A DNA stretch of 39,849 nucleotides, taken from assembly GCA_025928585.1 (NCBI GenBank), contig JAICJG010000013.1, positions 1 to 39,849 of the forward strand, read 5' to 3'. Positions 15,681-39,810 of the stretch are shown piece by piece. Origin of the DNA: Rhodanobacteraceae bacterium (GTDB lineage: Bacteria; Pseudomonadota; Gammaproteobacteria; Xanthomonadales; Rhodanobacteraceae). A model generated the notes under the pieces. It ran no database searches, was not told where the DNA came from, and worked only from the letters and a program-made list of their open reading frames with translations. Made by a program: the position numbers and the translations under genes. How positions within the stretch are numbered: position 1 is the stretch's first letter; the number at the start of each line of letters is the position of its first letter.

Positions 15681-15780
15681 TGTGAGAAGTCAGGCCATGG
15701 ATGGCCGTCCTGGTCTTGACGACCCGAGGCGCTGCTACCACCGATCACATTCGTGAGGCAGCGATCAGGGACGATCGCAT
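15681..15780 (+). repeat. two-stem ATGGA element, copy A
   Basis: Stem-loop 1 is GGCC-ATGGAT-GGCC, preceded by AAGTCA and followed by a GTCCTGGTCTT-type box. Stem-loop 2 is GCGATC-AGGGAC-GATCGC near the right end. The right end touches the ubiE stop codon (15780-15782) on the minus strand, so it forms the immediate 3' UTR of ubiE. Confidence 0.85.
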
Positions 15781-16541
15781 CAAACACGGTAACCGCGATG
15801 GATCGCCACGATGCCGGCCGAAAGGTTGCGCACTTCCACACCCAGGAATCCAGCCGCCTCCATCATCGCCTTCAGGGTCGCCTGGTCCGGATGCTTGCGG
15901 ATCGATTCGGCGAGGTAGCGATAGCTGCCCTCATCGTGCGCGACGAGCTTGCCGATCCGTGGCAGCACCCGGAACGAATGGAAGTCGTAGAGCGGTTTCA
16001 GCCAATTCTGGTTGACCCTGGAGAATTCGAGGATCAGCACGCGGCCGCCGGGTTTCAGCACGCGATGCATTTCCGCGAGCGCCTTGTCCTTGTCGGTGAC
16101 GTTGCGCAGGCCGAATGCGATCGTCACCGCATCGAACGATTCATCCGGAAACGGCAGCGCCTCGGCATTGATTTGCGTCCACCGCAGGCCCTCCAGCAAC
16201 CCGCGGTCCAGCAGGCGATCGCGGCCCGCCTGCAGCATGGCGGCGTTGATGTCGCCAATCACCACCTCGCCCTCGCCGCCCACCCGCGGCAGCAGCAAGG
16301 CGGCGATGTCGCCGGTGCCACCGGCAAGGTCGAGCACGCGATCACCTTTGCGGACGCCTGAGGTCGCGACGAAGAACCGCTTCCACAATCGGTGCACGCC
16401 GAACGACATCAGGTCGTTCATCACGTCGTACTTGCCGGCGACCGACGAGAACACCTCGCCGACCAGTTTTTGCTTTTCGGCGACCGGGACTTCGCGGTAG
16501 CCGAAGTGGGTGGTGACGCCGGGGGTGTGCGTTTCTCTCAT
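15780..16541 (-). CDS. ubiE: ubiquinone/menaquinone C-methyltransferase UbiE
   Basis: A 253-residue SAM-dependent C-methyltransferase acting in ubiquinone (and menaquinone, if made) synthesis. Family marks are [21 protein letters not shown]-like N-terminus, [21 protein letters not shown] motif [11 protein letters not shown], the [22 protein letters not shown] block, and [15 protein letters not shown]. The ATG at 16541 follows a TACAAT by exactly 6 nt, with no Shine-Dalgarno, so a leaderless mRNA is likely. It is not linked here to ubiJ-ubiB, which lie about 3 kb away on the other strand; in many gammaproteobacteria ubiE-ubiJ-ubiB form one operon. Confidence 0.97.
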
Positions 16542-16547
16542 GGCTGC

Positions 16548-16553
16548 ATTGTA
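16548..16553 (-). promoter_or_regulatory. -10 hexamer of ubiE, leaderless spacing
   Basis: TACAAT on the minus strand, 6 nt (GCAGCC) before the ubiE ATG. Same geometry as hrpB, trmL and ubiJ. Confidence 0.5.
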
Positions 16554-16758
16554 CGGTGACTTCCCCGGCGGGTTTGCGGCCATCGAGGAGAACCGTCGCC
16601 GGGATGCAGCCAGGCGGAATCCGGGAATCGTGGGACGTTTTCGCGGACCCCGGCGCCGTGCCTCCGTCCAGGTCGCCCGCGCGACCCCATCCCGGAACAG
16701 GAGAATGAGCCGCGGCGGGGGGACCGGTTTACACTGTGTCCCGGCCTCCGGAAAACGC

Positions 16759-17457
16759 ATGCAACGCTGCCTCGTCACAGGCGCCAATCGCGGGCTCGGA
16801 TTGGCGTTCGTCACCGAACTGCTGGAACGCGGTGCGCGCGTGCTCGCCTGCTGCCGCGACCCGGCGCACGCCGGCGTCCTCGACGCCCTGCGCGCGTCCC
16901 ACGAGGACCGGCTGGCGATCCAGCCGCTGGACGTCGCCGACCCGGACGCGATCGACGCACTGCCGGCGGCGGCGGCCAGGCACCTGCAGCGCGTGGACCT
17001 CCTGATCAACAATGCGGGCGTGCTGGTTTCCGGCGAACGCTTCGGCAACGTCATGGCCGCCTCGCTCGCGGAGAGCTTTGCGGTCAACGCCAGCGCGCCG
17101 CTCCTCATCACCCAGGCGCTGGCGCCGCTGCTGGCGCTCGGCAACAAACCGCGGGTGCTCTGCATCAGCTCCCAGATCGCCTCGATCGCGCAGTCGGCGC
17201 GCTTCCGCACCATGAGCTACGCGATGAGCAAGGCCGCGCTCAACATGGCGGTGAAGCGGCTGGCGGCGGAACTCGCCCCGCGCGGGATCGTGGTGCTCGC
17301 CGTCCATCCGGGTTGGCTGAAAACGGCCATGGGCGGCCAGGGGGCGACCCTGGCGCCGGGCGACTCCGCACACGCGTTGCTCGGACTGATTGAACGCGCC
17401 GGCATCGAGGACGCCGGGAAATTTCTCGCCTACGACGGTGCCGAGCTGCCCTGGTAG
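16759..17457 (+). CDS. short-chain dehydrogenase/reductase
   Basis: A 232-residue classical SDR. The cofactor motif is TGANRGLG (residues 7-14), the NNAG motif is present, and the catalytic set is Ser in CISSQIAS with YxxxK in YAMSK. Arg in the TGANRGLG loop and CCRD after strand 2 suggest NADP preference. It is close in layout to CsgA/sniffer-type SDRs. The ATG at 16759 gives the canonical start with the nucleotide-binding strand right at the N-terminus. A TACACT hexamer at 16730-16735 is a possible -10. The substrate is unknown. Confidence 0.9.
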
Positions 17458-17498
17458 CAATTGCCGGAGCGTGACGCCGTTCACGTTTTGCAGTCGTT

Positions 17499-17530
17499 CC
17501 CCCGCCCGCTTTTCGCGGGTCCGGCGGGGG
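17499..17530. terminator. hairpin after the SDR gene
   Basis: CCCCCG (17499-17504) pairs with CGGGGG (17525-17530), and an inner CCCGC/GCGGG stem closes a TTTTC loop. It lies 41 nt after the SDR stop. No T-run follows. Confidence 0.5.
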
Positions 17531-17606
17531 TGGCCGCACCGTGGCACGGGCCGTGCTTCGCATTCCGGGCCGGGACGTCCGGTTTCGACAGCAATGGGCA
17601 GGGGCC

Positions 17607-17696
17607 ATGAAAGTCGAGTCGATCCTCATGCGGAGCATGTTCGCAATGGCGGCGCTCGCCGTCGTCTGCGGCATCGTCGCGATCGGCCTGCACTGA
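17607..17696 (+). CDS. candidate 29-residue single-pass membrane peptide
   Basis: A short open frame (ATG 17607, TGA 17694-17696) in the otherwise gene-free 448-nt stretch between the SDR gene and trmL. The peptide has a short basic/polar N-terminus (MKVESILMRS) and then one uninterrupted hydrophobic helix of about 18 residues ending GLH. This layout is common for small inner-membrane proteins. A purine-rich GGGCAGGGG precedes the ATG by a few nt and can act as a ribosome-binding site. I do not recognise a family. Conservation in relatives would decide; a random hydrophobic ORF in GC-rich DNA is possible. Confidence 0.4.
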   Translation: MKVESILMRSMFAMAALAVVCGIVAIGLH

Positions 17697-17790
17697 TCCG
17701 AAGGCGGGTGACGCATCCGGAGCTCTGGTGCCATCTGCGCACCGGCTGGCGCCTGCGCGCAACCCAAAAGGGGAACGGCTGAGCGCTCAG

Positions 17791-17892
17791 CTTGCGTGGG
17801 CAGTCAGGCCAAGGAAGGCGGTTCTGGCTGGTTCTGCGACTCCATCCAGGCACCGACTTCATTCAGCCCTGCGGCGATCATGGACGATCGCA
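17791..17892 (+). repeat. two-stem ATGGA element, copy B
   Basis: Stem-loop 2 is perfect: GCGATC (17874-17879), loop ATGGAC, GATCGC (17886-17891). Stem-loop 1 is degenerate (GGCC-AAGGAA-GGCG at 17807). Stem-loop 2 directly abuts the -10 hexamer and start codon of trmL. Confidence 0.75.
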
Positions 17893-17893
17893 C

Positions 17894-17899
17894 CATAAT
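17894..17899 (+). promoter_or_regulatory. -10 hexamer of trmL, leaderless spacing
   Basis: CATAAT followed by exactly 6 nt (GCCCGG) and the GTG start of trmL. The upstream promoter region is the right half of repeat copy B. Confidence 0.4.
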
Positions 17900-17905
17900 G
17901 CCCGG

Positions 17906-18370
17906 GTGCTGCACGTCATCCTGTACCAGCCGGAGATTCCACCGAACACGGGCAACGTGATCCGGCTGTGCGCGAACGCCGGTGCATCGCTGCACCTGAT
18001 CCGGCCGCTCGGCTTCGGACTCGAGCATGCCAAGCTGCGCCGCGCCGGACTCGATTACCACGAATTCGTGAACCTGATGGCCCACGACGACCTCGCGGCC
18101 TGCCTCGAACGGCTGCAGCAGCCGCGCGTATTCGCGTTCACCAGTCACGCACGACTCCGCTACACGGAGACCCGCTTCGCCGACGGCGATGCACTGCTGT
18201 TCGGACGCGAAACCAGCGGCCTGCCCGAAACCGTCCTGCGAACCTTGCCCGAAGCCCGGCGCCTGCGCCTGCCGATGCAACCGGACAACCGCAGCCTCAA
18301 CCTGTCCAACGCGGTCGCGATCGCGGTGTACGAAGCTTGGCGGCAGCTGGGGTTTCCCGGCGGCACATGA
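17906..18370 (+). CDS. trmL: tRNA (cytidine/uridine-34 2'-O)-methyltransferase TrmL
   Basis: A 154-residue SPOUT-class (trefoil-knot) methyltransferase that 2'-O-methylates the wobble nucleotide of certain tRNA-Leu species. The N-terminus [24 protein letters not shown], the central FGRETSGLP and the C-terminal [28 protein letters not shown] are diagnostic and form the SAM-binding knot. The start is GTG at 17906. No in-frame ATG exists nearby, and family proteins begin at this strand. The gene is bracketed by two copies of the two-stem repeat in opposite orientation: copy B ends 14 nt before the start and copy C begins at the base after the stop. Confidence 0.95.
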
Positions 18371-18475
18371 TTGCGATCGTCCATGATCGTGGCAGCATGC
18401 GATTGGCGTTTTTCAAACCGTGGATCGCGATAAGCGAAGTGTCCGAACGGCCATCCATGACTCTCCACAACAGCT
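18371..18475 (-). repeat. two-stem ATGGA element, copy C (reverse, degenerate)
   Basis: Reverse orientation, starting at the base after the trmL stop. Stem-loop 2 is GCGATC-GTCCAT-GATCGT on the plus strand, with one mismatch. Stem-loop 1 has lost one GGCC arm (only GGCC-ATCCAT remains at 18449-18458), but the flanking AGTC and CTCCACAACAG-type sequence is kept. Confidence 0.7.
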
Positions 18476-18510
18476 GCTCCCGCTCGGAGCGTTGATCGAA
18501 GAATGCGCGT

Positions 18511-19068
18511 TCAGCGCAGCAGGATCCACGCGCCCAGCGCGGCGAACAACGCCGCAGCGACAAACCGTGTCGCGCGCAGCGGCAGGCGTGTCGCGAAACG
18601 CGCGCCGAGCAACACGACCGGCACGTTCGCAACCAGCATCCCGGCGGTGCTGCCCACGATGACTTGCCAGAGCGGCTGGTAGTGCGCGCCGAGCACCACC
18701 GTCGCGATCTGGGTGCGATCACCCAGTTCGGCAACGAAAAACCCCACCACCGAAGCGAGGAATACGCCATGCGCCGGGCGCGGCGGCGCATCGACGTGCA
18801 CTTCCTTTTCGGGCAACAACGCCCAGGCCGCAACGGCCAGGAACGAAAGCCCGATCAGCCACCGCTGCACGTCCGGCGTCATCCAGTGCGCGAGCCACGC
18901 GCCCAGTTCGGCGGCGATCGCATGGCTCAGCAACGAAGCGACGAGGATGCCGGCGCAGATCGGCCACGGCCTGCGGAACTTGGCCGCCAGCACCAGCGAC
19001 AACAATTGCGTCTTGTCGCCGATTTCGGCGAGTGCGACGGCACCGAGTGAAACGAGGAAGGCTTCCAA
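18511..19068 (-). CDS. UPF0016/TMEM165-GDT1-family manganese exporter
   Basis: A 185-residue six-helix membrane protein with the two signature motifs of the family, AEIGDKTQLLSL in the first half and AELGDRTQIATV in the second (E-x-G-D-[KR]-T). Bacterial members export Mn2+, for example MneA of Vibrio (established family knowledge). The start chosen is TTG at 19068, giving EAFLVSLGAVALAEIGDKTQ, which is how relatives begin. A GTG 9 codons upstream is an alternative. The sequence before the TTG is the palindrome GGGATATCCC (19069-19078), which could hide the ribosome-binding site. A manganese riboswitch lies 72 nt upstream, supporting the function. Confidence 0.9.
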   Translation of the reverse strand: MEAFLVSLGAVALAEIGDKTQLLSLVLAAKFRRPWPICAGILVASLLSHAIAAELGAWLAHWMTPDVQRWLIGLSFLAVAAWALLPEKEVHVDAPPRPAHGVFLASVVGFFVAELGDRTQIATVVLGAHYQPLWQVIVGSTAGMLVANVPVVLLGARFATRLPLRATRFVAAALFAALGAWILLR

Positions 19069-19139
19069 GGGATATCCCGGGGCCGGTGACACGCGACAAT
19101 CCCGGCGTGCGCTCCGGCCCGGACACGCGCGCTGGGACT

Positions 19140-19240
19140 GTCGGTCTCGCCAGCCTCGCGGGCTGCCTGCGCCACGGCCTGCCGGCCGAGTGTGTTGACG
19201 CAGGCCCTTCGGTGACATCCGAAGGCGGCTACTCCCCGAC
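19140..19240 (-). promoter_or_regulatory. yybP-ykoY (manganese) riboswitch
   Basis: Read on the minus strand, P1 is GTCGG (19240-19236) with CCGAC (19144-19140). The L1 signature GGGGAGTAGC follows P1 directly, then a 7-bp P2 hairpin (CCTTCGG/CCGAAGG). A P3 stem GCCTGCG/CGCAGGC encloses GTCAACACACTCG, the hallmark block of the family. A P4 hairpin AGCC-CGCGA-GGCT and the conserved GGCGAGACC close the aptamer. It lies upstream of a UPF0016 manganese exporter, the classic partner gene. It is expected to turn the exporter on when Mn2+ is high. Confidence 0.93.
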
Positions 19241-19295
19241 GGAGTGCGCGCAGGGTAGCGGCACGCCGGTTGCCACGCAACATCGAGCGAAGTAG

Positions 19296-19400
19296 CTGTT
19301 GTGGGAAGTCAGGCCATGGAAGGCCGTTCTGGTATTGCAATGCGCGAGAGACGCCATTCCGCCTCCGTGCTGCGGACCGCGGCGATCAGGGACGATCGCA
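19296..19400 (+). repeat. two-stem ATGGA element, copy D (array of three, unit 1)
   Basis: Stem-loop 1 is GGCC-ATGGAA-GGCC (19312-19325) followed by GTTCTGG. Stem-loop 2 is GCGATC-AGGGAC-GATCGC (19382-19399). The left flank CTGTTGTGGGAAGTCA matches copies G and H. Confidence 0.85.
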
Positions 19401-19498
19401 CAAACATGCAAGGGCAGGATGCCCGTTCTGGCGTTGCTGGAACAGAGTCGTGGCAGTCTTACGGGCGTCTTGTATCGCAGCGATCATGGACGACCGCA
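19401..19498 (+). repeat. two-stem ATGGA element, copy E (array of three, unit 2)
   Basis: Stem-loop 1 is GGGC-AGGAT-GCCC (19412-19424), a compensated version of GGCC/GGCC, followed by the conserved GTTCTGG. Stem-loop 2 is GCGATC-ATGGAC-GACCGC with one mismatch. The central part is unlike units D and F. Confidence 0.8.
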
Positions 19499-19601
19499 CG
19501 ACGTGAGAAGTCAGGCCATGGAAGGCCGGTCTGGTATTGCAAGGCGCGAGAGACGCCATCCACTCTCTGCGTCTCGGGCTACCGCGAGCATGGACGATCG
19601 C
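19499..19601 (+). repeat. two-stem ATGGA element, copy F (array of three, unit 3)
   Basis: Stem-loop 1 is GGCC-ATGGAA-GGCC (19514-19527). Stem-loop 2 is GCGAGC-ATGGAC-GATCGC (19584-19601) with one mismatch. It shares its central GCGCGAGAGACGCCAT with unit D, so D and F are closest relatives. Confidence 0.8.
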
Positions 19602-19630
19602 ACCAGGGATGCCCGCCGCGACGACACGGC

Positions 19631-19636
19631 TACAAT
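19631..19636 (+). promoter_or_regulatory. -10 hexamer of ubiJ, leaderless spacing
   Basis: TACAAT, 6 nt before the second of two adjacent ATGs (19643) and 3 nt before the first (19640). This favours 19643 as the start. Confidence 0.45.
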
Positions 19637-19642
19637 TGCATG

Positions 19643-20299
19643 ATGCCCGACCGCGAACCGAACGCCTGGATTCCCCACCCGCTTCGCAAACTGGGTGGCC
19701 TCGCCCTCACCCTTGCTCTCAACCGGCTGGTGGCGCTCGATCCCGAAACGCACGAGGCCATCGGACGCCTCGAAGGGCACCGGATCGGCATCTACCTGCG
19801 CGGTCCCGAGATTGCGTTCGCGCTGGCCGCGCGCAACAGCACGCTGCAGATCGAACCGCCGCCGGACGCGAGCCGTGACGGCAGCGCCAGCGATTTCGAG
19901 GTCAAGGCGACGCCCGGTTCGCTGCTGGCGATGGTGCTCGGACGCGACGGTGACACGCGTCCGCCCGGCAAGGTGGAGATCGCCGGCGATGCCGAACTCG
20001 CGCGCCAGGTCCAGAAGCTCGCGCGCAATTACCGCCCCGATTTCGAGGCTGCGTTCTCCGCGGTGTTCGGCGACGTGATCGGGACCACGATCGCGCGCGC
20101 ACTGGGTGATGCCGCGAAGTGGGCGGGCGAGGGGGCGCGCCATTTCCGCGACGACACCATCGACTGGTTGCGCGACGAAGCCCGGGTCACGGTCCCGCAC
20201 CCCGAGATGAACGCCTTCCTCGACGACGTGGACGACTTGCGCGAGCGCACCGAGCGGCTGGCGGCGCGCATCGCCCGGCTCGGAACCCGCCAGCCATGA
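19643..20299 (+). CDS. ubiJ: ubiquinone biosynthesis accessory factor UbiJ (SCP2 domain)
   Basis: A 218-residue protein with an SCP2-like lipid-binding domain at the N-terminus (about 15-115) and a charged helical C-terminus with a coiled-coil-like end ([20 protein letters not shown]). UbiJ with UbiK supports the soluble Ubi complex that makes coenzyme Q, presumably by binding the polyprenyl lipid. The [12 protein letters not shown]...[20 protein letters not shown] block is typical. Of two adjacent ATGs, 19643 fits the -10 spacing seen in other genes here. The stop overlaps the ubiB start in ATGA (20296-20299). Confidence 0.92.
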
Positions 20300-22005
20300 C
20301 CCCGCTGCGCCTGTTGCCGCGCGTGGTGCACGTCGCCGCGGTACTGGTGCGCTACCGCGTCGACGATCTGATCGACGAACAGCACGCCTTGCGCCCGCTG
20401 CGCTGGCTGCGGGTGTTCCTGCCGCGTCCGCGCAAGCCGATTGCCGCGTTGCCGCGCGGGGCGCGTCTGCGCGCCGCGCTGACGGAACTCGGGCCGATCT
20501 GGGTCAAGGCGGGGCAAGTGCTCTCGACCCGCCGCGACCTCATTCCCGAAGACGTCGCCGAGGAACTCGCGCACCTGCAGGACCGGGTCACGCCGTTTCC
20601 GGGCAGCGAAGCGCGTGCGATCGTCGAACAATCACTCGGCAAGCCGATCGGCGAGCTGTATGCGAACTTCGATGAAACCCCGCTCGCCTCGGCCTCGGTC
20701 GCGCAGGTGCACGCCGCGCGGCTGCATCCGTCCACCACGGTTTCGGCAGCCGGCGGGCGGCCGATTGCCTCGACGGCCGTGGGCCGCGAAGTGGTGGTCA
20801 AGGTCCTGCGTCCGAACATCCACCAGAACATCCGCCAGAACCTCGAACTGCTGGACGCACTGGCCTGGCTGGTCCAGCGCTGGCACCCGCAAGCCGACAA
20901 GATCCGTCCGCGCGACATGTTCGATGAAGTCGCCAAGACCCTGCACAACGAGCTGAACCTCCAGAACGAAGGCGCCAACGCCAGCCTGCTGCGCCGCAAT
21001 TTCGAGAGCTCCGAAGACCTGTACGTGCCCGAGGTGATCTGGTCGCACACCGGCGAAAGGGTGCTGACGATGGAGCGCGTGTACGGCATTCCGGCCGATG
21101 ACCTCGCCGGGCTGGACAAGGCCGGCATCGATCGCCGGGCGCTCGCGGAGAAGGGCATACGGCTGTTCTACGAGCAGGTGTTCCGCGACAATTTTTTCCA
21201 CGCCGACGCGCATCCGGGCAACATCTGGGTCGATCCCACGCGTTCGCGGGATCCGCGCTTCATTGCGCTCGATTTCGGGATCATGGGCTCGCTGCCGCAA
21301 GAGGACCAGTACTGGCTCGCGGAAAACTTCATCGCGATGTTCGAGCGGGACTACCACCGGATCGCCGAACTCCACATCGCCGCCGGCTGGATGCCGCGCG
21401 ACATCCGGGTCGATGAGCTGGAGGCCGCGATCCGCACGGTCTGCGAGCCGTATTTCACGCGGCCGCTCTCGGAAATCTCACTCGCCGAGGTGGTGGCGAA
21501 GCTGTTCAGCGTGGCGCGCAAGTTCGAGCTGACCCTGCAGCCGCAACTGATCCTGCTGCAGAAGACCCTGCTGAACGTCGAGGGGCTGGGCCGCCAGGTC
21601 GACCCCGGCATCGATATCTGGTCGGTGGCGCAGCCGGTCCTGGAGCGGATTTTGGCGGACCGCTACAGCGCCCGGCGTGCCCTGAAGGAAATGCGCAAGC
21701 GCATCCCCGAGTGGCTGCGTATCGCGCCGCTGATTCCGGAGAAGATCCACGACGCACTCGAAGCGCTCGCCGAAGGCAACGGACCGCTGCAGTTCGGCGA
21801 ACGCGAACTCGAACACCTGCGGATGCTGCAACGCGAAGTCCAGCGCCGGATCCTTGCGGCGGCGTTCGGCGGCGCGCTGCTGGTCGGCGCGGGCCTGATA
21901 TTCGCGCTGGGCGACCGCTATGGCATCTGGCCACCGATCATCCTCGCGGTGATCGGCGTAGCGAGCTTCGCCGTCGCCTGGCCGTGGAGCCGCACGAAGC
22001 AATAA
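20296..22005 (+). CDS. ubiB: ubiquinone biosynthesis ATPase/kinase-like protein UbiB
   Basis: A 569-residue ADCK/ABC1-family protein kinase-like enzyme needed for ubiquinone synthesis, probably as an ATPase acting on membrane-bound intermediates. Visible marks are the KxGQ motif in [17 protein letters not shown] (about 75-80), [12 protein letters not shown] (the family's Ala-rich P-loop equivalent), [10 protein letters not shown] with the ATP Lys, [11 protein letters not shown], and ALDFGIMG (DFG). Two C-terminal membrane helices end the protein, as in E. coli UbiB. An insertion near residue 145-160 ([15 protein letters not shown]) lengthens the loop before the Lys strand. Its start overlaps ubiJ by 4 nt. 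Confidence 0.96.
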
Positions 22006-22009
22006 AGCT

Positions 22010-22082
22010 GGGGTCAGAGTGCAATTTCGTCGGCGGCTCGACGATTCTCGATGCGTTCGGCGCGAAATTGCACTCTGACCCC
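22010..22082. repeat. 20-bp perfect inverted repeat around a 33-nt core
   Basis: Arm 1 is GGGGTCAGAGTGCAATTTCG (22010-22029); arm 2 (22063-22082) is its exact reverse complement. It fills the 80-nt gap between the converging stops of ubiB and gpmA. The GGGGTCAGAGT ends are familiar from short non-coding elements scattered in proteobacterial genomes, often near Y1/RAYT-type transposases (inference from pattern). It can also serve as a two-way terminator. Confidence 0.85.
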
Positions 22083-22085
22083 GTC

Positions 22086-22835
22086 TTAGCCCGCGTTTGC
22101 ACGCCCCTGGTTCGCCACCGCCGCTTCCTTCGCGGCGATCGCCTCGGCGTCGCCGAGGTAGAAATGCCGGATCGGCTTCATGGCATCGTCGAACTGGTAC
22201 ACGAGCGGTATGCCATTCGGTATGTTGAGGCCGACGATGTCGGCGTCGGAAATGCCGTCGAGGTACTTCACCAGCGCGCGCATCGAATTGCCGTGCGCCG
22301 ACATCAGCACGCGCTGGCCTGAGCGGATCGCCGGCGCCAGCAGCTCGTGCCAGTAGGGCAGGACCCTCGCGACGGTGTCCTTCAGGCATTCGGTCAGCGG
22401 GATTTGCGCGCGGTCGAGCTTGGCGTAGCGCGGATCGGCGGCGCAGAAGTCATCCTTCGGGTCGAGCGGCGGCGGCGGCACGTCGTAGCTGCGGCGCCAG
22501 ATGTGCACCTGCTCCTCGCCATGCCTGGCCGCCACTTCGGCCTTGTTGAGGCCGGTCAGGGCGCCGTAGTGGCGTTCATTCAAGCGCCAGTCGGTCACCA
22601 CCGGCAGCCAGGCGAGGTCCATCGCATCCTGCACGCCCCACAGGGTATGCACCGCGCGGGTCAGGACCGAGGTGTGCGCGACATCGAAGGAATAGCCTTC
22701 CCGTTTCAGCAGTTCACCGGCCTCGCGGGCTTCGCGGCGTCCCTGTTCGGAGAGGTCGATGTCGGCCCAGCCCGTGAACCGGTTCTCCTGGTTCCACAGC
22801 GACTGGCCATGGCGAATCATCACGAGGGTATGCAT
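22086..22835 (-). CDS. gpmA: 2,3-bisphosphoglycerate-dependent phosphoglycerate mutase
   Basis: A 249-residue dPGM that interconverts 3- and 2-phosphoglycerate in glycolysis. The phosphohistidine motif is [10 protein letters not shown] (His9). [39 protein letters not shown] and [14 protein letters not shown] are all present. The ATG at 22835 gives the standard N-terminus. A purine-rich AAAGGG precedes it, and TAGAAT at 22864-22869 on the minus strand is a plausible -10. The gene faces the repeat-type lipoprotein gene across a 353-nt divergent spacer holding two copies of the two-stem repeat. Confidence 0.97.
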
Positions 22836-22890
22836 GGCATGGCGCCCTTTCGCGAAATGGATCATTCTAGCGAGGCTTGGTTTGAGGCGG

Positions 22891-22995
22891 CTGTTGTGAA
22901 AAGTCAGGCCAGGGACGGCCGTTCTGGTCTTTCATGTTTCGGTGCGGATGCAGAGGCCGGTGAATTCGAGGATGCAGCGATCAGGGAAGATCGCA
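22891..22995 (+). repeat. two-stem ATGGA element, copy G (array of two, unit 1)
   Basis: Stem-loop 1 is GGCC-AGGGAC-GGCC (22907-22920) followed by GTTCTGGTCTT. Stem-loop 2 is GCGATC-AGGGAA-GATCGC (22977-22994). Left flank CTGTTGTGAAAAGTCA. Confidence 0.85.
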
Positions 22996-23000
22996 GGCAT

Positions 23001-23101
23001 AGGTGAAAAGTCAGCCCATGGATGGGCGTTCTGGTCTTCACGAGCTTCGCGCGGTGCCGCTGACGAACCATCCAGCGGAGCAGCGATCAGGGAAGATCGC
23101 A
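23001..23101 (+). repeat. two-stem ATGGA element, copy H (array of two, unit 2)
   Basis: Stem-loop 1 is GCCC-ATGGAT-GGGC (23014-23027), a compensated stem, with GTTCTGGTCTT after it. Stem-loop 2 is GCGATC-AGGGAA-GATCGC ending at 23100. It lies 88 nt before the lipoprotein start. Confidence 0.85.
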
Positions 23102-23188
23102 AAAACATCGATGACCAAGGGCCTATTGGCAAGCCACCCGGGTTCGGGCACGATCCTCCCGAACCACGCGCCAGCGCAGGAGGTTCCC

Positions 23189-23917
23189 ATGCGACACGCA
23201 CGTCTTTGCAGCTATGCCTTCGCCTTCATGGCCTTTCCGCTGGTGCTCGCGGCCTGCGTGAGCGGCGTGAACGGCTCGGTCGACGTCGCAGCCGGTTCCA
23301 GTGTTTCCGATGCGACGACCGTGAACGGGTCCGTGCACGTCGGCCCCAAAGCCAAGGCCAGGAAGGCATCCACCGTCAACGGATCGGTCGAACTGGCCGA
23401 CAGCGCCCAGGCCGGCGAAGTCAGCACCGTGAACGGGCATGTCACGCTGGGTCAGCACGCCAGCGCCGGAAGCATCGACACCGTCAACGGTGCAGTCACC
23501 CTGGAAACGGGCGCCACGGTTTCGGGTGACGTGACGGCGGTCAACGGCGCGCTCAGCCTCGAATCGGGTTCTGCCGTCAAGGGAGCGCTGACCAACGTCA
23601 ACAGCCACATCACCGTGGATGGAGCGCACATCGGCAACGGCATCACTACCGTCAACGGTGACATGGACATCACCGGCAACGCCGTGGTCGATGGCGGCAT
23701 CAAGGTCAAAAAGCCGAGCGACAACGGCGTCTTCGGCATCCACTTCGGCAACGACAATGTTCCGCGCATCGTGATCGGCCCCGGAGCCACGGTGAACGGC
23801 CCGCTGACCTTCGAGCGGCCGGTCCAGCTTTACATCAGCGACCAGGCGCACGTCACGGGACCGATCACCGGTGCACAGGCGATGAAGTACTCGGGCGCTA
23901 CGCCGCCGTCATCCTGA
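23189..23917 (+). CDS. lipoprotein with repeated TVNG motifs (predicted beta-helix)
   Basis: A 242-residue predicted lipoprotein. The signal peptide ends in the lipobox LVLAAC, with lipidated Cys23. After it come about nine imperfect repeats of 16-20 residues, each built on [TAN]-V-N-[GS]-x-[VLI]: VNGSVDV, VNGSVHV, VNGSVEL, VNGHVTL, VNGAVTL, VNGALSL, VNSHITV, VNGDMDI and VNGPLTF. This periodicity suggests a right-handed beta-solenoid resembling bactofilin/polymer-forming domains. The start is fixed by AGGAGG at 23178-23183, 5 nt before the ATG. Function is not known; an envelope or outer-membrane location is likely. It converges with the phosphomannomutase gene. Confidence 0.85.
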   Translation: MRHARLCSYAFAFMAFPLVLAACVSGVNGSVDVAAGSSVSDATTVNGSVHVGPKAKARKASTVNGSVELADSAQAGEVSTVNGHVTLGQHASAGSIDTVNGAVTLETGATVSGDVTAVNGALSLESGSAVKGALTNVNSHITVDGAHIGNGITTVNGDMDITGNAVVDGGIKVKKPSDNGVFGIHFGNDNVPRIVIGPGATVNGPLTFERPVQLYISDQAHVTGPITGAQAMKYSGATPPSS

Positions 23918-23971
23918 GAACGCTCGCCGAGCAGGCTGACCCGGAAACGCTGGCCACCCCGGCCGAGCCCG

Positions 23972-26389: not shown

Positions 26390-26390
26390 G

Positions 26391-29316: not shown

Positions 29317-29325
29317 GGAAGCGAT

Positions 29326-29355
29326 TTGGTCGCAGACCATCCGCTGCGCTACGAT
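29326..29355 (+). promoter_or_regulatory. putative argS promoter
   Basis: TTGGTC (29326-29331) and TACGAT (29350-29355) with an 18-nt spacer. The -10 overlaps the upstream ATG at 29354, which argues that the real argS start is the GTG at 29387. Confidence 0.4.
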
Positions 29356-29386
29356 GCCGGATCGTCCCGTTCCTGCCCATTCTCAC

Positions 29387-31150: not shown

Positions 31151-31226
31151 CGATCCGGTTCTTTCTTCAACGATGTGAAGCGGCCCGTGGCCGCGCCGCA
31201 CGCACACACGCATTCGAGGGCAGGCA

Positions 31227-31850: not shown

Positions 31851-31983
31851 GGGCAGGTGACCGCTGGCGGGGGCGCAGGTCCCGGGTGCATTTCGTGGTG
31901 CCGGATTCTCCAACGATGCGCCCCTCCCACCGCCGATCCGCGTTTGTCGAGCCGGATCGCCCGATGCAATGGAAGGACCGTAC

Positions 31984-32739: not shown

Positions 32740-32742
32740 CGG

Positions 32743-34620: not shown

Positions 34621-34647
34621 CGCGGTTCCGGGCTCAATCCAAACGCC

Positions 34648-34684
34648 GATTGTAGCGCCGCGTGGCGCACCGGCCGTTACAATC
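34648..34684. promoter_or_regulatory. symmetric divergent promoter region of speA and speE
   Basis: GATTGTA (34648-34654) and TACAATC (34678-34684) are perfect 7-bp inverted arms. They place a TACAAT -10 box on each strand, 29 nt before the speA ATG and 27 nt before the speE ATG. No clear -35 elements are seen. Confidence 0.45.
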
Positions 34685-34710
34685 GGGCGCCTGTCCAAAA
34701 GGTTTTGCGC

Positions 34711-35562
34711 ATGTCGCCGTCCAACTGGTTCACCGAGCAACACGAGGCTTCCGGTTCGTCCATCGGCTACCGGGTCGGCGCCAGGCTCGCCGACGAGCAG
34801 ACGCCGTTCCAGCACATCGAGGTCTGGCGTACCACCGATTGGGGCAACCTGATGGTGATCGACGGCTGCATCATGCTCACCAGCCGCGACAATTTCTTCT
34901 ATCACGAGATGATGACCCACCCGGCGCTGTTCACCCACGCGGCACCGCGCGAGGTCGTGATCATCGGCGGCGGCGACTGCGGAACCCTGCGCGAGGTCTT
35001 GCGCCACGCCGAAGTGCAGGCGGCGGTACAGGTCGAGATCGATGAGCGCGTGACCCGGCTCGCCGAAGAGCACTTTCCGGAGCTGTGCGAATCGAACGCC
35101 GACCCGCGCGCGCGGCTGCTGTTCGACGACGGCATCCGGTACATGGCCGACGCCGCGCCCGAGTCGCTGGACGTCGTGATCGTCGATTCGACCGATCCCG
35201 TCGGACCGGCGGAAGGCCTGTTCAACGCGAAGTTCTACGCGAGCTGTTTCCGTGCGCTGCGTCCCGGGGGCATCCTGGTGCAGCAATCGGAATCGCCGCT
35301 GGTGCTGCTGGACCTGATCCAGTCGATCCACGCGGCGACACGTGAGGTCGGCTTTGCCGCGACCCGCACCCTGGCGTTCCCGCAGCCGTGCTATCCGACC
35401 GGCTGGTGGAGTTGCACGCTCGCGCGCAAGCAGGCTTCGCTCGACGATTTCCGTGAAGACGCGGCGGCGGGCAAGCCGTTCGCCACCCGTTACTACAACG
35501 CCGCGATCCATCGCGCGGCGCTGGCGCAGCCCGAGTTCATGCGCGAAGCGCTCGGCGCCTGA
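34711..35562 (+). CDS. speE: spermidine synthase
   Basis: A 283-residue aminopropyltransferase that moves the aminopropyl group of decarboxylated SAM to putrescine. The Rossmann core shows VVIIGGGDCGTLREVLRH, the polyamine-binding VDSTDPVGPAEGLF, and DNFFYHEMMTHPAL. Length and the WFTEQHE N-terminus are typical of the bacterial enzyme. AAAAGG lies 8-13 nt upstream of the ATG at 34711. No speD gene is in the window, so the decarboxylated-SAM supply is encoded elsewhere. Confidence 0.97.
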   Translation: MSPSNWFTEQHEASGSSIGYRVGARLADEQTPFQHIEVWRTTDWGNLMVIDGCIMLTSRDNFFYHEMMTHPALFTHAAPREVVIIGGGDCGTLREVLRHAEVQAAVQVEIDERVTRLAEEHFPELCESNADPRARLLFDDGIRYMADAAPESLDVVIVDSTDPVGPAEGLFNAKFYASCFRALRPGGILVQQSESPLVLLDLIQSIHAATREVGFAATRTLAFPQPCYPTGWWSCTLARKQASLDDFREDAAAGKPFATRYYNAAIHRAALAQPEFMREALGA

Positions 35563-35641
35563 CGAATCGCACCGAGCCGGCCCGGCAGGCGAGGGTTCAT
35601 CGGCGCATCTTTACGGTCAGCAGCTCGCTCCGGAGCACGAC

Positions 35642-36679
35642 ATGCACAGACTTGCCCCGATTGTCGCCTTTACGGGCTTGCTGATCGCCGGCCACGCGTC
35701 GGCGACCCCACCGCCGGCAGCGGCGGGTTCGACTGCAGGCACGAGCGCCTCGCCCGCCGACCAGAAGCGCGTCGCCGCGATCCAGCAGTACCAGCATGAC
35801 CTGGTCAGCGTGGTCGCGCTGCGGGCGGAGCCCGATTACCTGCTCGGCGCCGCGATCCTCGCCAAGCCCTTCGAGAACCAGACCCCCGGCCTCGAATTCG
35901 ACGCCTTGAGCCAGCGCGCCGCGGCGGCGCCCGGTGCCGGTCCCGCGGTCCACTGGCAACGCCTGGTCGCCTGCAAGACCCAGGCGGATTGCCCGAACCA
36001 GGACGCCCTCGCCTATCTCGAGCAGCACGCTGCCGACAACGCCGCGGTCTGGATCGTGGCGATGGATGTCGCCGCCCAGGACAAGGATGCCGCCGCGGAA
36101 CGCGCGGCGCTGAAAAAAGCCGCCGCCGCGCGGTCCTATGACGACTATTACGGCAAGGCCCTGGCGGGCGTCGCCGAGGCCGTGGCGGTGCTGCCGCCCC
36201 TGGACGACACCACCAAGGGCGCGCACGATGGCCAGCCCGACAATCCGGACGGCGTGCGGGTACTGGTCACGCTCATGAACATGCAGGCGTACACCCGGCC
36301 GGATTTCGGGCCGGTGGACAAGCTCTGCGGGAAACCGGGTGCCGGCAAGGACGCCGAGCCCGCGGCCGACTGCCTGAAGCTCGCGCATACCTTGCAGTGG
36401 GGCTCGAGCCCCATCGCGCGCGCGATGGGGTTGCGCATCCAGGCTGTCTTGCAGCCGGCCCGCAAGGCGCAGGCCGAGCAGGCCAGCCGCGATCTCGAGT
36501 GGCAGGTGCAGCAATATTCGCACCTGCTGCAGCGCTCGCTCACCGATCCGGCGCGGGCCTCGCGCTGGCTCGCGGCGGCCCGCAACGGCGGGACGGAACT
36601 CAGCTTGATCCTCGCCACCTTGCGCGCGAACGGAATTCCACTCGACGCGCCGGCCTCCGCCGGCAGCGCCGCCCGATGA
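35642..36679 (+). CDS. secreted protein of unknown function
   Basis: A 345-residue protein with a clear signal peptide (residues 1-21, ending HASA) followed by an Ala/Gly/Ser/Thr-rich spacer. The mature part is mostly alpha-helical and Ala-rich and has two Cys pairs (ACKTQADC near residue 118 and LCGK...ADCLK near 225-245), so it probably forms disulfides in the periplasm. WIVAMDVAAQDKDAAAERAALKKAAAA resembles helical TPR/Sel1-like packing, but I cannot name a domain. The start at 35642 was chosen because it begins the signal peptide. It is followed 12 nt later by the sixA-like gene and may be in one transcript with it. Confidence 0.8.
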   Translation: MHRLAPIVAFTGLLIAGHASATPPPAAAGSTAGTSASPADQKRVAAIQQYQHDLVSVVALRAEPDYLLGAAILAKPFENQTPGLEFDALSQRAAAAPGAGPAVHWQRLVACKTQADCPNQDALAYLEQHAADNAAVWIVAMDVAAQDKDAAAERAALKKAAAARSYDDYYGKALAGVAEAVAVLPPLDDTTKGAHDGQPDNPDGVRVLVTLMNMQAYTRPDFGPVDKLCGKPGAGKDAEPAADCLKLAHTLQWGSSPIARAMGLRIQAVLQPARKAQAEQASRDLEWQVQQYSHLLQRSLTDPARASRWLAAARNGGTELSLILATLRANGIPLDAPASAGSAAR

Positions 36680-36691
36680 AGGGACACGGCG

Positions 36692-37165
36692 ATGCGTGAA
36701 TTGTTGCTGCTGCGCCATGCCGAGGCGATGTCGGCCGGACCCGACACGCGCGACATCGAGCGGCCCCTGAGCGTCCACGGCGAACGCCAGGCGCGCGCAG
36801 CGGGAACCTGGCTGGCGGGCCAGGCCGCGCCTGACGCCCTGCTGTGCTCGCCGGCACGGCGCGCGCAGATGACCTTCGACGCGCTCGCCCGGTCGCTGCC
36901 GGTGCGCCCCCCGCTGTTCCTGCCTGGAATCTACGAGGCCACCCCGGGCGACCTGCTGACGTTGCTGGAGACGCACGCCGGCGCGGCGCGCCAAGTGCTC
37001 CTGATCGGGCACAACCCGGGGCTCGAGCAATTGCTCGCGCTGCTGACCGAAGGGCGTTCCGCCGGGGCACGCGGACTGGCGCCCGCGACCCTCGCCTGGG
37101 TCGAGTTTGCCGGGGACGCATTCGAACCAGGCGGCGGCCGGCTGCGGGCTTTGTGGTCGCCATGA
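36692..37165 (+). CDS. sixA: phosphohistidine phosphatase, SixA-like
   Basis: A 157-residue small histidine phosphatase. The catalytic His is in LLLLRHAEA (residues 4-12), Arg in SPARRAQMT, and the second His in LIGHNPGLEQLL. SixA removes phosphate from phosphohistidine, for instance on ArcB or the nitrogen PTS protein in E. coli (established for that species; the target here is unknown). GAAGGGA upstream sets the start. The stop overlaps the yceI-like start in ATGA (37162-37165). Confidence 0.9.
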   Translation: MRELLLLRHAEAMSAGPDTRDIERPLSVHGERQARAAGTWLAGQAAPDALLCSPARRAQMTFDALARSLPVRPPLFLPGIYEATPGDLLTLLETHAGAARQVLLIGHNPGLEQLLALLTEGRSAGARGLAPATLAWVEFAGDAFEPGGGRLRALWSP

Positions 37166-37743
37166 ATGCAGCCTGGGTCCTGGCGTTGCTGCTGCCGGGC
37201 CTGGCGCTCGCGGCGGCCCCGGCACCCGACCTGCAAACCCGGCCGATCGATCCGGCGCGCTCGCAGGCGCAATTCAGCGTGCGCAAGCTTTGGTTCGCGC
37301 ACGAACGCGGCACCTTTCCGGACCTCCATGGCACGCTCCGCCGGACCGAAACGCCGGACGGCGGGGACTTCGTGACCGTCGATGCCACGCTGGACGTCGC
37401 CGAGCTCGAAATGGACGACCCCGACCACCGCGCCCGCGCGCTTGGCCCCGATTTCTTCGATCAGACCAGCTACCCGTGGATCGGTTTCGATTCGAATCCC
37501 TTTCCGCTCGCGGAACTCGCGACCGGCGGGGCCGTCAGCGGCACGCTCGCCCTGCACGGCGAGCGGCAGCCGGTGACGCTCACCTTGCAGGCATCCACCT
37601 GCCCCGCCGAGCCACTCGCCTGCGTGATCCGGGTGCGCGGAACGATCGAACGCTCGAAATTCGGCATGCGCGGGCTGCGCGGGGTGTTGTCCGACCGGGT
37701 CGAACTGCGCTTGCGGATCGTATTGTCGGACGCTGCCCCGTGA
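37162..37743 (+). CDS. YceI-family periplasmic lipid-binding protein
   Basis: A 193-residue protein with a signal peptide (about 1-17, ALA) and a YceI lipocalin-like barrel. Family cues are the opening PARSQAQFSVRKL(W)FAHERGTF, the DFVTVDATLDVAELEMDDPDHRARALGPDFFD stretch (the usual D..DxhlrspdFfd), the SYPWIGF strand, and KFGMRGLRGVLSDRVELRLRIVL at the end. YceI proteins bind isoprenoid quinones or similar long lipids. Two Cys near the C-terminal third (TCPAEPLAC) could pair. Translation is coupled to sixA by the ATGA overlap. Confidence 0.9.
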   Translation: MNAAWVLALLLPGLALAAAPAPDLQTRPIDPARSQAQFSVRKLWFAHERGTFPDLHGTLRRTETPDGGDFVTVDATLDVAELEMDDPDHRARALGPDFFDQTSYPWIGFDSNPFPLAELATGGAVSGTLALHGERQPVTLTLQASTCPAEPLACVIRVRGTIERSKFGMRGLRGVLSDRVELRLRIVLSDAAP

Positions 37744-37854
37744 GCGCGGCAGCGGCCGCGCACGGACGGGCGGATCAGTGCCGATCGCCGGCCGCCCCCA
37801 CCGAACGGCATGGGTGCGCGCGCTGCCCCAGCGCCGGCGATGGAACGCGCCGCG

Positions 37855-37860
37855 TATGAT
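37855..37860 (+). promoter_or_regulatory. -10 hexamer of the phospholipase D-family gene
   Basis: TATGAT, 7 nt before the ATG at 37868. It overlaps the earlier in-frame ATG (37856), which supports 37868 as the start. Confidence 0.4.
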
Positions 37861-37867
37861 CGCGTCG

Positions 37868-39703
37868 ATGAACCGCAATGTGCGCACACGGATCGGCGTA
37901 TGCCTTTGCGTTTTCACGCTGGTCCTCGCCGCCTGTGCGCCGTTGTCGCCGCGCCGCATCCAGCGCGCCGACCAGATCGTCGCGATGTCGGTCGATCAGC
38001 GCATCGACTGCGCCCGCGCCGACCATTGCGCCGAGCCATCGCCGTTCCTCGAGCAGGCGCATGCCGCACTGGCGGCGTCGAGTCCCGGGCACCCGCACAA
38101 CGTCGTCACGCTGCTGGACATCGGGCAGAACGCACTGGCTGCGCGCATCAACCTGATCCGGGCGGCGCGCAAATCCATCGATATTCAAACCTACATCTGG
38201 GTCGACGATGATGCCGGAATGCTGGTGCTGGACGAGCTGGTCAAGGCCGCGCGCCGTGGCGTGGTGGTCCGGATCCTCGCCGACCAGCTCGGTTCGTTCA
38301 ACAATCCCGAACTGCTTTCGCAACTCGCGCGCGCCAGCAACAACCTGCACATCAAGCTGTACAACCCGACCTTCGACAGCGCGCGCAGCAACTTCGTCGA
38401 ATACACCGCGAGCGTGCTGTGCTGCTTTCACAAGTTCAACCAGCGCATGCACAACAAGCTGTTCCTGGTCGACGACGAGGTCGGCATCGTCGGTGGACGC
38501 AATTACCAGGACGACTATTACGACTGGGATTCGCAGATGGACTTCCTCGACCGCGACGTGGTCGTCGCGGGCGCCGCCGGGCGGCAGATGGAAAAAAGCT
38601 TCGAGCTCTTCTGGCACCACCCCCGCTCGCTGCCGCTGACGCACCTGAGGGACGTCAACGCGCAGATCCTCGCGCATCCCTTCGACGCCAAGTCGTGGAG
38701 CGAGCCGCGCTTCGCCGATCCGCAGCGGGTTGCCAAGGTCCGCGCGCAGGCCGAGGACCGCGATTGGCTCGAGTCGAACCTCGTCGACCACAGCCTCAAA
38801 GTCGGACTGGTCGACTACTTCTACGACCTGCCGTCCAAGGACGAAGCGGTGCACGGTCCGGATTCGCGCGAGCTGACCCGCGACCTGATGGCGATGCTGG
38901 CGGGTGCCCGGCACCAGATCGTGCTGCAGACCCCGTACCTCGTGCTGACTGATCGCGCAGGCAAGGTCTTCAGGGCGCTGCAGCGCAAGCGGCCGCCGGT
39001 GCAGGTGATCGTGTCGACCAATTCGCTGGCCTCGACCGATGCGATGGCGGTGTATGCGCTCTCCTACAAGCACCACAAGAAGTTCGTGGTGGACTACGGC
39101 TTCCGCATCCATGAGTTGATGCCGCACCCGGCCGACGCGCCGGAAATGCTGGCCGACTACAACCGCCTCTCGGGCATCGGGTCCGAGCGATCTTCCCTCC
39201 ACCGCGGCGGACGGGTGCCGATCGAGGCCGGCCATCCCGGACCACGCGTCAGCCTGCACGCAAAATCGCTGGTGGTGGACGACCAAATCGCGATGGTCGG
39301 CTCGCACAATTTCGATCCGCGCTCGGACAACTACAACACCGAGTGCGGCGTGATCATCCCCGACCGGGCGTTTGCCGAGGAGTTGCGCGCGTCGATCCTG
39401 CGCGATACGGCGCCCCGCAATGCCTGGCGGGTGGCGCCGCGCCACCCGACCCCGGTGATCGGCGACGTGAGCCGGGCTATCGGCGTGGTCTCGCGCAGCC
39501 TGCCGATTTTCGACCTCTGGCCCTGGGCCTATGCCACCGATTATCAGTTGAAACCGGGCGCCACGCCGGTGCCGCCGAGTGATCCGAAATTCCTCGACAA
39601 CTGGGAACCGGTCGGCGACTTCCCCGAGGTCAACCTGTCGTTGACGGCGATCATCACTCGCTTCATCACTGCCTTTGGCGCCGGCATCCAGGGGATCCTT
39701 TAG
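37868..39703 (+). CDS. phospholipase D-family lipoprotein (cardiolipin synthase C-like)
   Basis: A 611-residue protein with a lipoprotein signal (lipobox LVLAAC, Cys23) and two PLD domains. The first HKD motif is H195-N-K197 with D202 (HNKLFLVDD, then GGRNYQDDYYDW). The second is HAKSLVVDD followed by GSHNFDPRSDNYNTECG. The layout with GQNALAARINLIRAARKSIDIQTYIW matches YmdC/ClsC-type enzymes that make cardiolipin from two phospholipids at the inner-membrane surface, but a periplasmic lipase role is possible. ATG 37868 is preferred over 37856 because of the -10 box. The stop is followed after 2 nt by a copy of the two-stem repeat. Confidence 0.9.
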   Translation: MNRNVRTRIGVCLCVFTLVLAACAPLSPRRIQRADQIVAMSVDQRIDCARADHCAEPSPFLEQAHAALAASSPGHPHNVVTLLDIGQNALAARINLIRAARKSIDIQTYIWVDDDAGMLVLDELVKAARRGVVVRILADQLGSFNNPELLSQLARASNNLHIKLYNPTFDSARSNFVEYTASVLCCFHKFNQRMHNKLFLVDDEVGIVGGRNYQDDYYDWDSQMDFLDRDVVVAGAAGRQMEKSFELFWHHPRSLPLTHLRDVNAQILAHPFDAKSWSEPRFADPQRVAKVRAQAEDRDWLESNLVDHSLKVGLVDYFYDLPSKDEAVHGPDSRELTRDLMAMLAGARHQIVLQTPYLVLTDRAGKVFRALQRKRPPVQVIVSTNSLASTDAMAVYALSYKHHKKFVVDYGFRIHELMPHPADAPEMLADYNRLSGIGSERSSLHRGGRVPIEAGHPGPRVSLHAKSLVVDDQIAMVGSHNFDPRSDNYNTECGVIIPDRAFAEELRASILRDTAPRNAWRVAPRHPTPVIGDVSRAIGVVSRSLPIFDLWPWAYATDYQLKPGATPVPPSDPKFLDNWEPVGDFPEVNLSLTAIITRFITAFGAGIQGIL

Positions 39704-39705
39704 CC

Positions 39706-39810
39706 TTGCGTTCCTCCGTGAACGCTGCATCACGAGGCGCCGGGGATCCCTATGCATTTGCGCCCCCGTGTAGACCAGGGCGGCCATCCATGGCCTGACT
39801 TTCCGCAAAA
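39706..39810 (-). repeat. two-stem ATGGA element, copy I (reverse)
   Basis: Reverse orientation after the phospholipase D-family stop. Stem-loop 2 is GCGTTC-CTCCGT-GAACGC (39708-39725), a fully compensated stem that differs from the GCGATC/GATCGC of other copies. Stem-loop 1 is GGCC-ATCCAT-GGCC (39782-39795), followed by TGACTTTCCGCAA. The last 39 nt of the window hold further short palindromic pieces (GGCCGTC/GACGGGCC) that may start another unit. Confidence 0.8.

Follow-up and report, generated by a model that had tools for sequence, protein, structure and literature searches.

What kind of element is a two-hairpin repeat that recurs nine times in a 39,849-nt stretch of a Rhodanobacteraceae genome (assembly GCA_025928585.1, contig JAICJG010000013.1; hereafter the window): a mobile sequence, a regulatory RNA module or a protein-binding site? 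A first-pass annotation of the window had listed these three options for nine intergenic copies, here called A to I. Our analysis reveals that the family is real and large, that all nine copies are present, and that the element has four properties beyond those described earlier, namely an ANGGAN rule for both loops, a fixed spacing between the hairpins, placement at gene ends and a biased orientation relative to genes. We tentatively read it as a dispersed DNA element of gene 3′ ends, similar to repetitive extragenic palindromes (REPs), that spread long ago and has been kept by selection for a gene-end role.

The window copies exceed chance expectation by a wide margin. The 5′ motif matched seven times at up to two mismatches (0.08 expected; 0 of 100 shuffles reached seven), and stem 2 matched 11 times at up to three mismatches against 1.8 expected, one of the 11 being the other strand of copy B and one lying outside the elements at 5509. 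A covariance model (R1) built from 30 copies of the window's own genome, including A, D, F, G, H and I, recovered A, B, C, D, F, G and I within the window, the weakest being C (E = 2.2e-10), while H (E = 1.0e-21) and E (E = 6.6e-8) were recovered in a whole-genome search with the same model. Together, these counts and the model bear out the claim of nine copies sharing one plan, and the stem variants named in the first-pass annotation were all seen (GGGC/GCCC in E, GCCC/GGGC in H and GCGTTC/GAACGC in I). Some details require revision. The loops ATGGAT, ATGGAC and AGGGAC occur, but the actual set is more varied; the first stem-loop, described as 4 bp with a 6-nt loop in all copies, is imperfect in B and degenerate in C and has a 5-nt loop in E; and the middle, given as a variable 40 to 55 nt, varies in sequence but is nearly fixed in length, with stem starts 69 to 71 nt apart in 143 of 162 copies of the genus under a looser search.

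The element spans about 116 bp and contains two unlike hairpins (HP1 and HP2) in the same direction. Its order is a left flank, CGRAGCGGCTGTTGTGRAAAGTCA; HP1, GGCC-ANGGAN-GGCC; GTTCTGG; about 40 free bases; GC.GC; HP2, GCGATC-ANGGAY-GATCGC; and A. The HP1 module comprises an AAAGTCA head and the GTTCTGG tail, and the HP2 module has a GCA tail. Directly 5′ of HP1 the bases AAG (92, 97 and 96%) are followed by TCA, which is fixed by the search anchor; other genera have AGTGC here, with the head AAAGTGC and an HP1 that reads GTGCGGCC-loop-GGCCGCTTYTGG or close to it. Hairpin starts are 69 to 71 nt apart in 113 of 128 copies, and the middle of near-constant length and free sequence paired no more than its shuffled versions when both strands were checked in 67 copies, so that a third stem was not detected there; a middle hairpin is visible by eye in some copies of other genera. 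HP1 was parsed in 178 and HP2 in 162 of 226 copies (176 and 162 of 212 for the genus alone). Several tandem units have no left flank, and two arrays from other genera (L056 and L057) carry, by eye, further hairpins with different stems, GGA loops and the same direction.

All 17 six-nucleotide loops of the nine window copies fit ANGGAN (ATGGAT, ATGGAA, AAGGAA and AGGGAC; ATGGAC, AGGGAC, AGGGAA and ACGGAG). A query that did not constrain the loop gave 84 matches (from 80 of 89 stretches, two of the matches, in Actinoplanes and an archaeon, being due to chance), of which 71 were ANGGAN, with position 2 occupied by T in 48, G in 15, A in 11 and C in 10, and position 6 by T in 47, A in 28, C in 6 and G in 3. 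The second hairpin of these 84 had a six-nucleotide loop in 48, of which 46 were ANGGAN, another loop length in 23 and no hairpin in 13. With anchors placed outside the loops, the rule holds in the genus for 143 of 176 first loops and 144 of 162 second loops. Outside the genus, where the model used to find the copies itself covered the loops, it holds for 81 of 84 and 66 of 72 loops parsed from 96 copies, and for 26 of the 34 first loops parsed from 44 weaker copies. The core of both loops is kept about equally across four gene contexts (71 to 86%, seen without a statistical test, with 44 of 184 copies unparsed).

A survey placed the element mainly within one bacterial family. The own genome (2.73 Mb) holds at least 142 model matches at E ≤ 0.1, 137 of them at E ≤ 0.001, when up to 150 candidates were scored, and the 5′ pattern at up to three mismatches occurs 77 + 49 times there, compared with 13 + 15 for a reversed control. 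All 16 genomes of the genus carry matches, from 17 (G010) to at least 60 in the genus search at E ≤ 0.001. A second covariance model, built from 14 copies of several genera, detected the element in 110 of 147 family genomes (20 of 26 genera) and in 61 of 299 genomes of the order, only 7 of the 61 lying outside the family. The free-loop pattern likewise matched metagenome-assembled genomes labelled Rhodanobacteraceae, Rhodanobacter, Lysobacteraceae, Lysobacterales, or simply Gammaproteobacteria or Proteobacteria, apart from the two chance matches. As only 6 of 215 unique copies lie inside called genes, the element is a high-copy intergenic palindrome. Viral contigs contained no exact match of the genus pattern, which speaks against carriage by phages.

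From paired stem changes, the first-pass annotation had argued that a folded strand is under selection or is copied from a template. This argument extends well beyond the nine copies: cells in which both sides of a pair had changed numbered 6 against 0.7 in shuffles for 30 copies and, in alignments fitted to the structure of the model and therefore favouring pairing, 29 against 2.5 for 124 matches, 40 against 3.5 for 96 copies of other genera and 31 against 3.9 for 44 weaker copies. In each of the four alignments, 0 of 500 shuffles and no slid control reached the observed value. The number of pairs with two-sided change was itself reached by 4 of 500 shuffles for the 30 copies and by 6 of 500 for the 124 matches. 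The two-sided changes thus support this earlier argument.

The kind of change is informative about the molecule. Nearly all stem changes are complete exchanges of one Watson-Crick pair for another, with few intermediates of either kind. Wobble pairs show no strand preference, with 16 G.T and 17 A.C in the genus, 13 and 20 outside it (p = 0.30), and 29 and 37 overall, whereas a control of signal recognition particle (SRP) RNA from the same bacterial family gave 118 G.T and 0 A.C (20 distinct sequences of 30). Among changes between standard pairs, two-sided outnumbered one-sided by 100 to 23 in the element and by 31 to 26 in SRP RNA. Because both wobbles are about equally rare and one-sided changes are few, the stems differ from what an RNA acting on a single strand would show. 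On these comparisons a DNA hairpin would fit the stem data better than an RNA hairpin, and template switching would fit as well, which we regard as evidence rather than proof. One long HP1 (L497, in G004) has its whole loop inverted between the arms: its reverse complement matches three copies at 0.86 to 0.89, compared with 0.51 to 0.57 for the forward sequence, and this points to template switching or hairpin inversion.

To place the copies relative to genes, we used our own codon-usage gene caller, with the transcribed strand taken from gene direction alone. The 237 matches reduced to 215 unique copies, of which 25 lay at edges and 14 came from other genera; a recount restricted to the genus retained 201 unique copies, 170 of them placed and 31 at edges or inside genes (the loop-context, spacing, middle-pairing and middle-comparison sets still include the 14 copies where these were parsed). 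Among the 170, 88 lie antisense and 26 sense between co-directional genes, 29 between convergent and 27 between divergent genes. The complete genome G014 shows the same tendency, with 29 antisense, 14 sense, 11 divergent, 5 convergent and 4 inside genes (63 of 64 copies). Outside the genus the bias is stronger, with 82 antisense against 5 sense, 5 convergent and 4 divergent among 96 copies; the 44 weaker copies divide into 23 antisense, 2 sense, 9 convergent, 6 divergent and 4 edge cases. Combined, the strand with UCC loops is transcribed at 105 and the GGA strand at 7 of the co-directional sites outside the genus. A tRNA gene is the neighbour at HP2 in 22 of the 82 antisense copies, 15 of these being tRNA-Glu at 1 to 6 nt, so the 82 are not all independent. 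Judged from its orientation to genes, transcription mostly makes the UCC strand of the element.

The outer end of HP2 often coincides with a stop codon or the 3′ end of a tRNA. In 93 of the 117 genus copies that face a gene end, it falls within −21 to +8 nt of the stop codon. In 19 copies (18 in the genus; e.g., L112, L117, L123, L124 and L169), HP2 contains the stop of the neighbouring gene, and 15 of the 19 proteins whose stop and last residues are supplied by the element end in DRP* or DHP*.

The strongest evidence for selection at a single locus comes from the 3′ end of tRNA-Glu(CTC), which carries a conserved element in four genera. Across 13 aligned sequences, chosen by model matches only, HP1 is 98 to 99%, HP2 87% and the tRNA itself 95 to 98% identical, compared with 40 to 47% for the middle and 22 to 24% for the spacer that precedes the next gene. 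The g16 and g41 sequences have a different left neighbour, and both neighbours are common only to g6 and g19; between these two (18 pairs), HP1 is 99%, HP2 90%, the middle 53% and the spacer 27% identical. HP2 at this site alternates between GCGATC/GATCGC and GCAATC/GATTGC, with no intermediate seen among the aligned sites. Several g19 sequences add a small hairpin, CTCTT-GTG-AAGAG, in the left flank.

Comparison of the middles suggests that spread is old. Among 7750 pairs formed by 125 middles, the clearly alike ones (score ≥19) were the same stretch taken twice, tandem or local copies, or pairs between species, the last counted irrespective of synteny. Two unlinked pairs within G000 scored 14 and 13.5, where the largest value in 6000 shuffles was 12.5; save for these borderline pairs, unlinked middles of one genome are unrelated, and no clear recent copying of whole elements was found. 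The median pair score was 4 compared with 3.5 in shuffles, a slight shift of the kind expected if all copies share a distant ancestor. For site A, 24 of 44 bases are the same in the middles of G000 and G002, above 2000 of 2000 shuffles, and the elements are of equal length; at site H, the middles of G000 and G008 agree at 16 of 40 ungapped positions, which is not above shuffles (mean 10.5, largest 21). Occupancy of orthologous sites is patchy between species.

A variant common in one genome shows a related pattern. Lengths of about 140 nt are reached by 21 of the 57 matches in G004, compared with 3 of 64 in G014, and in G004 this length goes with a variant HP1 (L353, L357 and L489 to L506) in which an outer GGCC stem encloses ANGGAGCTCTTGGCC-ATGGAT-GGCGGCTC, giving a branched structure with a second GGA. 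The outer stem again undergoes exchanges (GACC/GGTC and GTCC/GGAC). In 19 of the 21 long copies, each with a longer HP1, the 5′ modules are 80%, HP2 91% and the middles 33% identical, and the middles of 14 of the 21, compared among themselves, are unrelated. Old spread of the variant or an exchange of modules between loci would account for this.

Several explanations can be held against this evidence. The loops initially suggested an RNA module bound by CsrA/RsmA, in which ANGGAN hexaloops would be RsmA sites and the copies decoys or mRNA sites. According to PMC3791407, ANGGAN is the RsmA/RsmN consensus, and binding tolerates a 5-nt loop but is weak with a 4-nt one; the frequency of the motif at both hairpins, its variable positions 2 and 6 and the presence of one CsrA gene are in keeping with this. 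Of the 114 tandem contexts within the genus, however, only 26 have the GGA strand transcribed, as do 7 of 112 outside it, which speaks strongly against such a module. There is no G.U excess on the ANGGAN strand, and the loops are about equally kept when antisense. No sigma-70 promoter was found in window positions 15500 to 23300, and since little is conserved upstream of about −28, and the spacer before the element at the tRNA-Glu site is 22 to 27% identical, no shared promoter was seen. On gene orientation and the wobble comparison we turned this reading down as very unlikely. If the functional strand were instead the UCC strand, the 3′ untranslated region of an mRNA or a tRNA trailer would fold the hairpins and end, process or protect the transcript, comparable to REPs in mRNA or to a weak terminator. 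We regard this as possible but doubtful. The 105 to 7 orientation outside the genus (its sites not all independent) favours it, as do the run TGACTTTTC that follows HP1 on this strand and the minus-strand calls of terminator-like sites at copies G and H. Over the whole stretch, though, the number of such sites did not exceed shuffles (7 versus 4.8, standard deviation 2.1), and a terminator requires neither conserved loops nor an HP2 at fixed spacing; the wobbles show no clear UCC-strand excess, and the genus loops are kept about equally in all gene contexts.

Two further explanations were considered. A non-autonomous mobile repeat without host function, of the REP kind or of the palindrome-associated transposable element (PATE) or miniature inverted-repeat transposable element (MITE) type, with ends kept for a transposase alone, would account for match counts that range within the genus from 17 to the 137 of the own genome, for patchy site occupancy, for head-to-tail arrays, for stop codons supplied by HP2 and for the common HP1 variant of G004. 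We nevertheless consider it rather unlikely. Of the 16 genus genomes, 7 have Y1 transposase matches, 6 of them above the cut-off, but 0 of 13 Y1 loci hold an element match, so a Y1 transposase is unlinked as a driver. Insertion by replication strand, as in the IS200/IS605 type, is not supported in G014, where 32 of 64 copies run with the fork (its direction taken from 20 GC-skew samples) and orientation follows genes (29:14) instead; the lack of exact matches in viral contigs, the restriction of alike middles noted above and the hairpins kept between genera behind tRNA-Glu also stand against mobility alone. Template switching could make the arms of inverted repeats alike while selection acts only on the primary sequence of loops and heads. 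The predominance of complete exchanges agrees with this, and the inverted loop of L497 is of the kind reported in PMC8604942 and PMC8794818, where spacer inversion accompanies arms made alike. As a full account it is improbable: it leaves the conserved loops, near-fixed spacing and gene-end placement unexplained, and none of the listed off-consensus six-nucleotide loops is an inverted ANGGAN.

The tentatively preferred reading, a REP-like DNA element retained at gene 3′ ends, would work as follows. The middle of free sequence holds the two hairpin modules at a near-fixed distance, and a host protein that reads the loops would dock on both as a pair. The hairpins would be used as DNA rather than as RNA, in single-stranded or cruciform form, where transcription exposes them at the end of a gene. 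Copies would stem from old transposition-like spread combined with module exchange, and would persist through their action on the end of the transcription unit that lies upstream. A more far-reaching form, which we judge unlikely, posits a new class of gene-end element in which a loop-specific protein reads the two hairpins as a pair at a fixed distance on transcription-exposed DNA, modules are exchanged between more than 100 loci by concerted evolution, and the spacer drifts in sequence at constant length. In that form, the element would mark transcript ends, and their direction, across the genomes of one bacterial family.

Several points weigh against a DNA element of this kind. Even in an RNA, stems this short may accommodate few wobbles; SRP RNA is a single control, and the wobble counts are small. 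The inverted loop of L497 indicates that template switching can explain part of the pairing, and the selection of the tRNA-Glu sites by model matches favours conserved hairpins. The orientation bias is weaker in the genus (88 to 26) and is not seen in the window, given that copies B, D to F, G and H lie upstream of genes; an orientation linked to transcription is, moreover, more natural for RNA. No protein partner of the hairpins was found, and the reader protein is a postulate. Of the options listed in the first-pass annotation, orientation disfavours an RNA module on the ANGGAN strand.

The element is of the REP kind by behavior but not a REP member by its defining head. Like REPs and bacterial interspersed mosaic elements (BIMEs), it is intergenic, present in many copies, built on a hairpin with an unpaired 5′ motif, partly located behind stops and clustered, and no linked transposase was found, as in CGTC REPs (PMC3733652, which distinguishes GTAG and CGTC superfamilies and describes CGTC REPs without a linked transposase). 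Some REPs lie close 3′ of stop codons and are said in PMC12306157 to stall ribosomes within 15 nt. Unlike REPs and BIMEs (20 to 40 bp), our element has two unlike hairpins of the same direction at near-fixed spacing over about 116 bp, a head of AAAGTCA or AAAGTGC rather than GTAG or CGTC, an A.GGA. loop rule, an orientation bias to genes and a free middle of near-constant length. Neither a GTAG or CGTC motif at the palindrome end nor a linked RAYT/Y1 gene flanked by the repeat was found.

Other known systems share single features. Csr/Rsm decoy RNAs likewise have ANGGAN hexaloop hairpins closed by C-G, paired or arrayed; the element differs in lying mostly on the wrong strand relative to transcription, in having no shared promoter that we could see, in occupying more than 100 dispersed loci in the own genome and in having no strand-specific wobbles. 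The TwoAYGGAY RNA motif of Rfam consists of two hairpins with AYGGAY loops and thus resembles the element in its two GGA-loop hairpins, whereas the element accepts any base at loop positions 2 and 6 and has no Rfam match. The non-autonomous PATEs of IS200/IS605 have a subterminal hairpin near each end and a conserved motif 5′ of the hairpin; unlike them, the element showed no linked Y1, no replication-strand bias in G014 and no middle common to its copies.

In agreement with the earlier statement that the element matches no named family, a search of the window against Rfam 15 at gathering scores returned only a yybP-ykoY riboswitch and nothing on the elements, and at E ≤ 10 nothing on elements A to H in positions 15600 to 23200. 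The literature on REPs, Xanthomonadaceae-type repeats and CsrA with repeats, searched mostly in papers readable without subscription, yielded among the papers listed no description of the element, nor of the HP1 core sequence. A family present in 110 of 147 genomes has no Rfam 15 match, and it unites features seldom seen together: conservation at single sites, covarying stems, orientation at gene ends and a spacer that is free in sequence but of near-constant length. The copy behind tRNA-Glu offers a locus suited to a functional test. The case also counsels caution in that ANGGAN hexaloops should not be taken as CsrA sites before the strand is checked.

Table 1. Positions and hairpins of the nine window copies, and the tRNA-Glu(CTC) sites compared between genera
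Feature	Location	Strand	HP1	HP2
Copy A	15672..15785	+	15693-15706, loop ATGGAT	15761-15778, loop AGGGAC
Copy B	17786..17898	+	17807-17820, loop AAGGAA, imperfect stem GGCC/GGCG	17874-17891, loop ATGGAC
Copy C	18366..18478	-	degenerate (stem 1)	18373-18390, loop ATGGAC
Copy D	19291..19406	+	19312-19325, loop ATGGAA	19382-19399, loop AGGGAC
Copy E	19411..19504	+	19412-19424, stem GGGC/GCCC, 5-nt loop AGGAT	19480-19497, loop ATGGAC
Copy F	19493..19608	+	19514-19527, loop ATGGAA	19584-19601, loop ATGGAC, imperfect stem
Copy G	22886..23001	+	22907-22920, loop AGGGAC	22977-22994, loop AGGGAA
Copy H	22993..23107	+	23014-23027, stem GCCC/GGGC, loop ATGGAT	23083-23100, loop AGGGAA
Copy I	39701..39816	-	39782-39795, loop ATGGAT	39708-39725, stem GCGTTC/GAACGC, loop ACGGAG
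tRNA-Glu sites	L050, L052, L258, L263, L267, L270, L271, L276, L278, L280, L289-L291

The surroundings of the window copies are varied. The HP2 end of copy A adjoins the stop codon of the opposite-strand gene 15780-16583, and copy B lies immediately 5′ of the same-strand gene 17906-18370. Copy C is located between convergent genes, its HP2 beginning 2 nt past the TGA of gene 17906-18370; this site is filled in G004 and G008 as well and empty in G014, G013, G011 and G009. Copies D, E and F form three units head-to-tail with D first, E having no left flank, like several later array units, and D and F having the left half of their middles in common. The GCCC/GGGC stem of copy H recurs in the G008 copy at the same site. 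Copy I lies immediately past the TAG of gene 37856-39703; because window positions 39690-39849 equal the start of contig C178 (L084 150-345) with one base changed, these contigs are probably neighbours, which would place copy I between two genes of the plus strand.

Two further features were observed in the window. The yybP-ykoY manganese riboswitch (RF00080, 61.5 bits) occupies 19149-19246 on the minus strand, 5′ of the opposite-strand gene 18511-19092 and adjoining copies D to F. A second repeat family, at 22004-22083, is an inverted repeat, GGGGTCAGAGTGCAATTT...AAATTGCACTCTGACCCC, with repeated matches among G000, G001 and G009 when the 16 genus genomes were searched.

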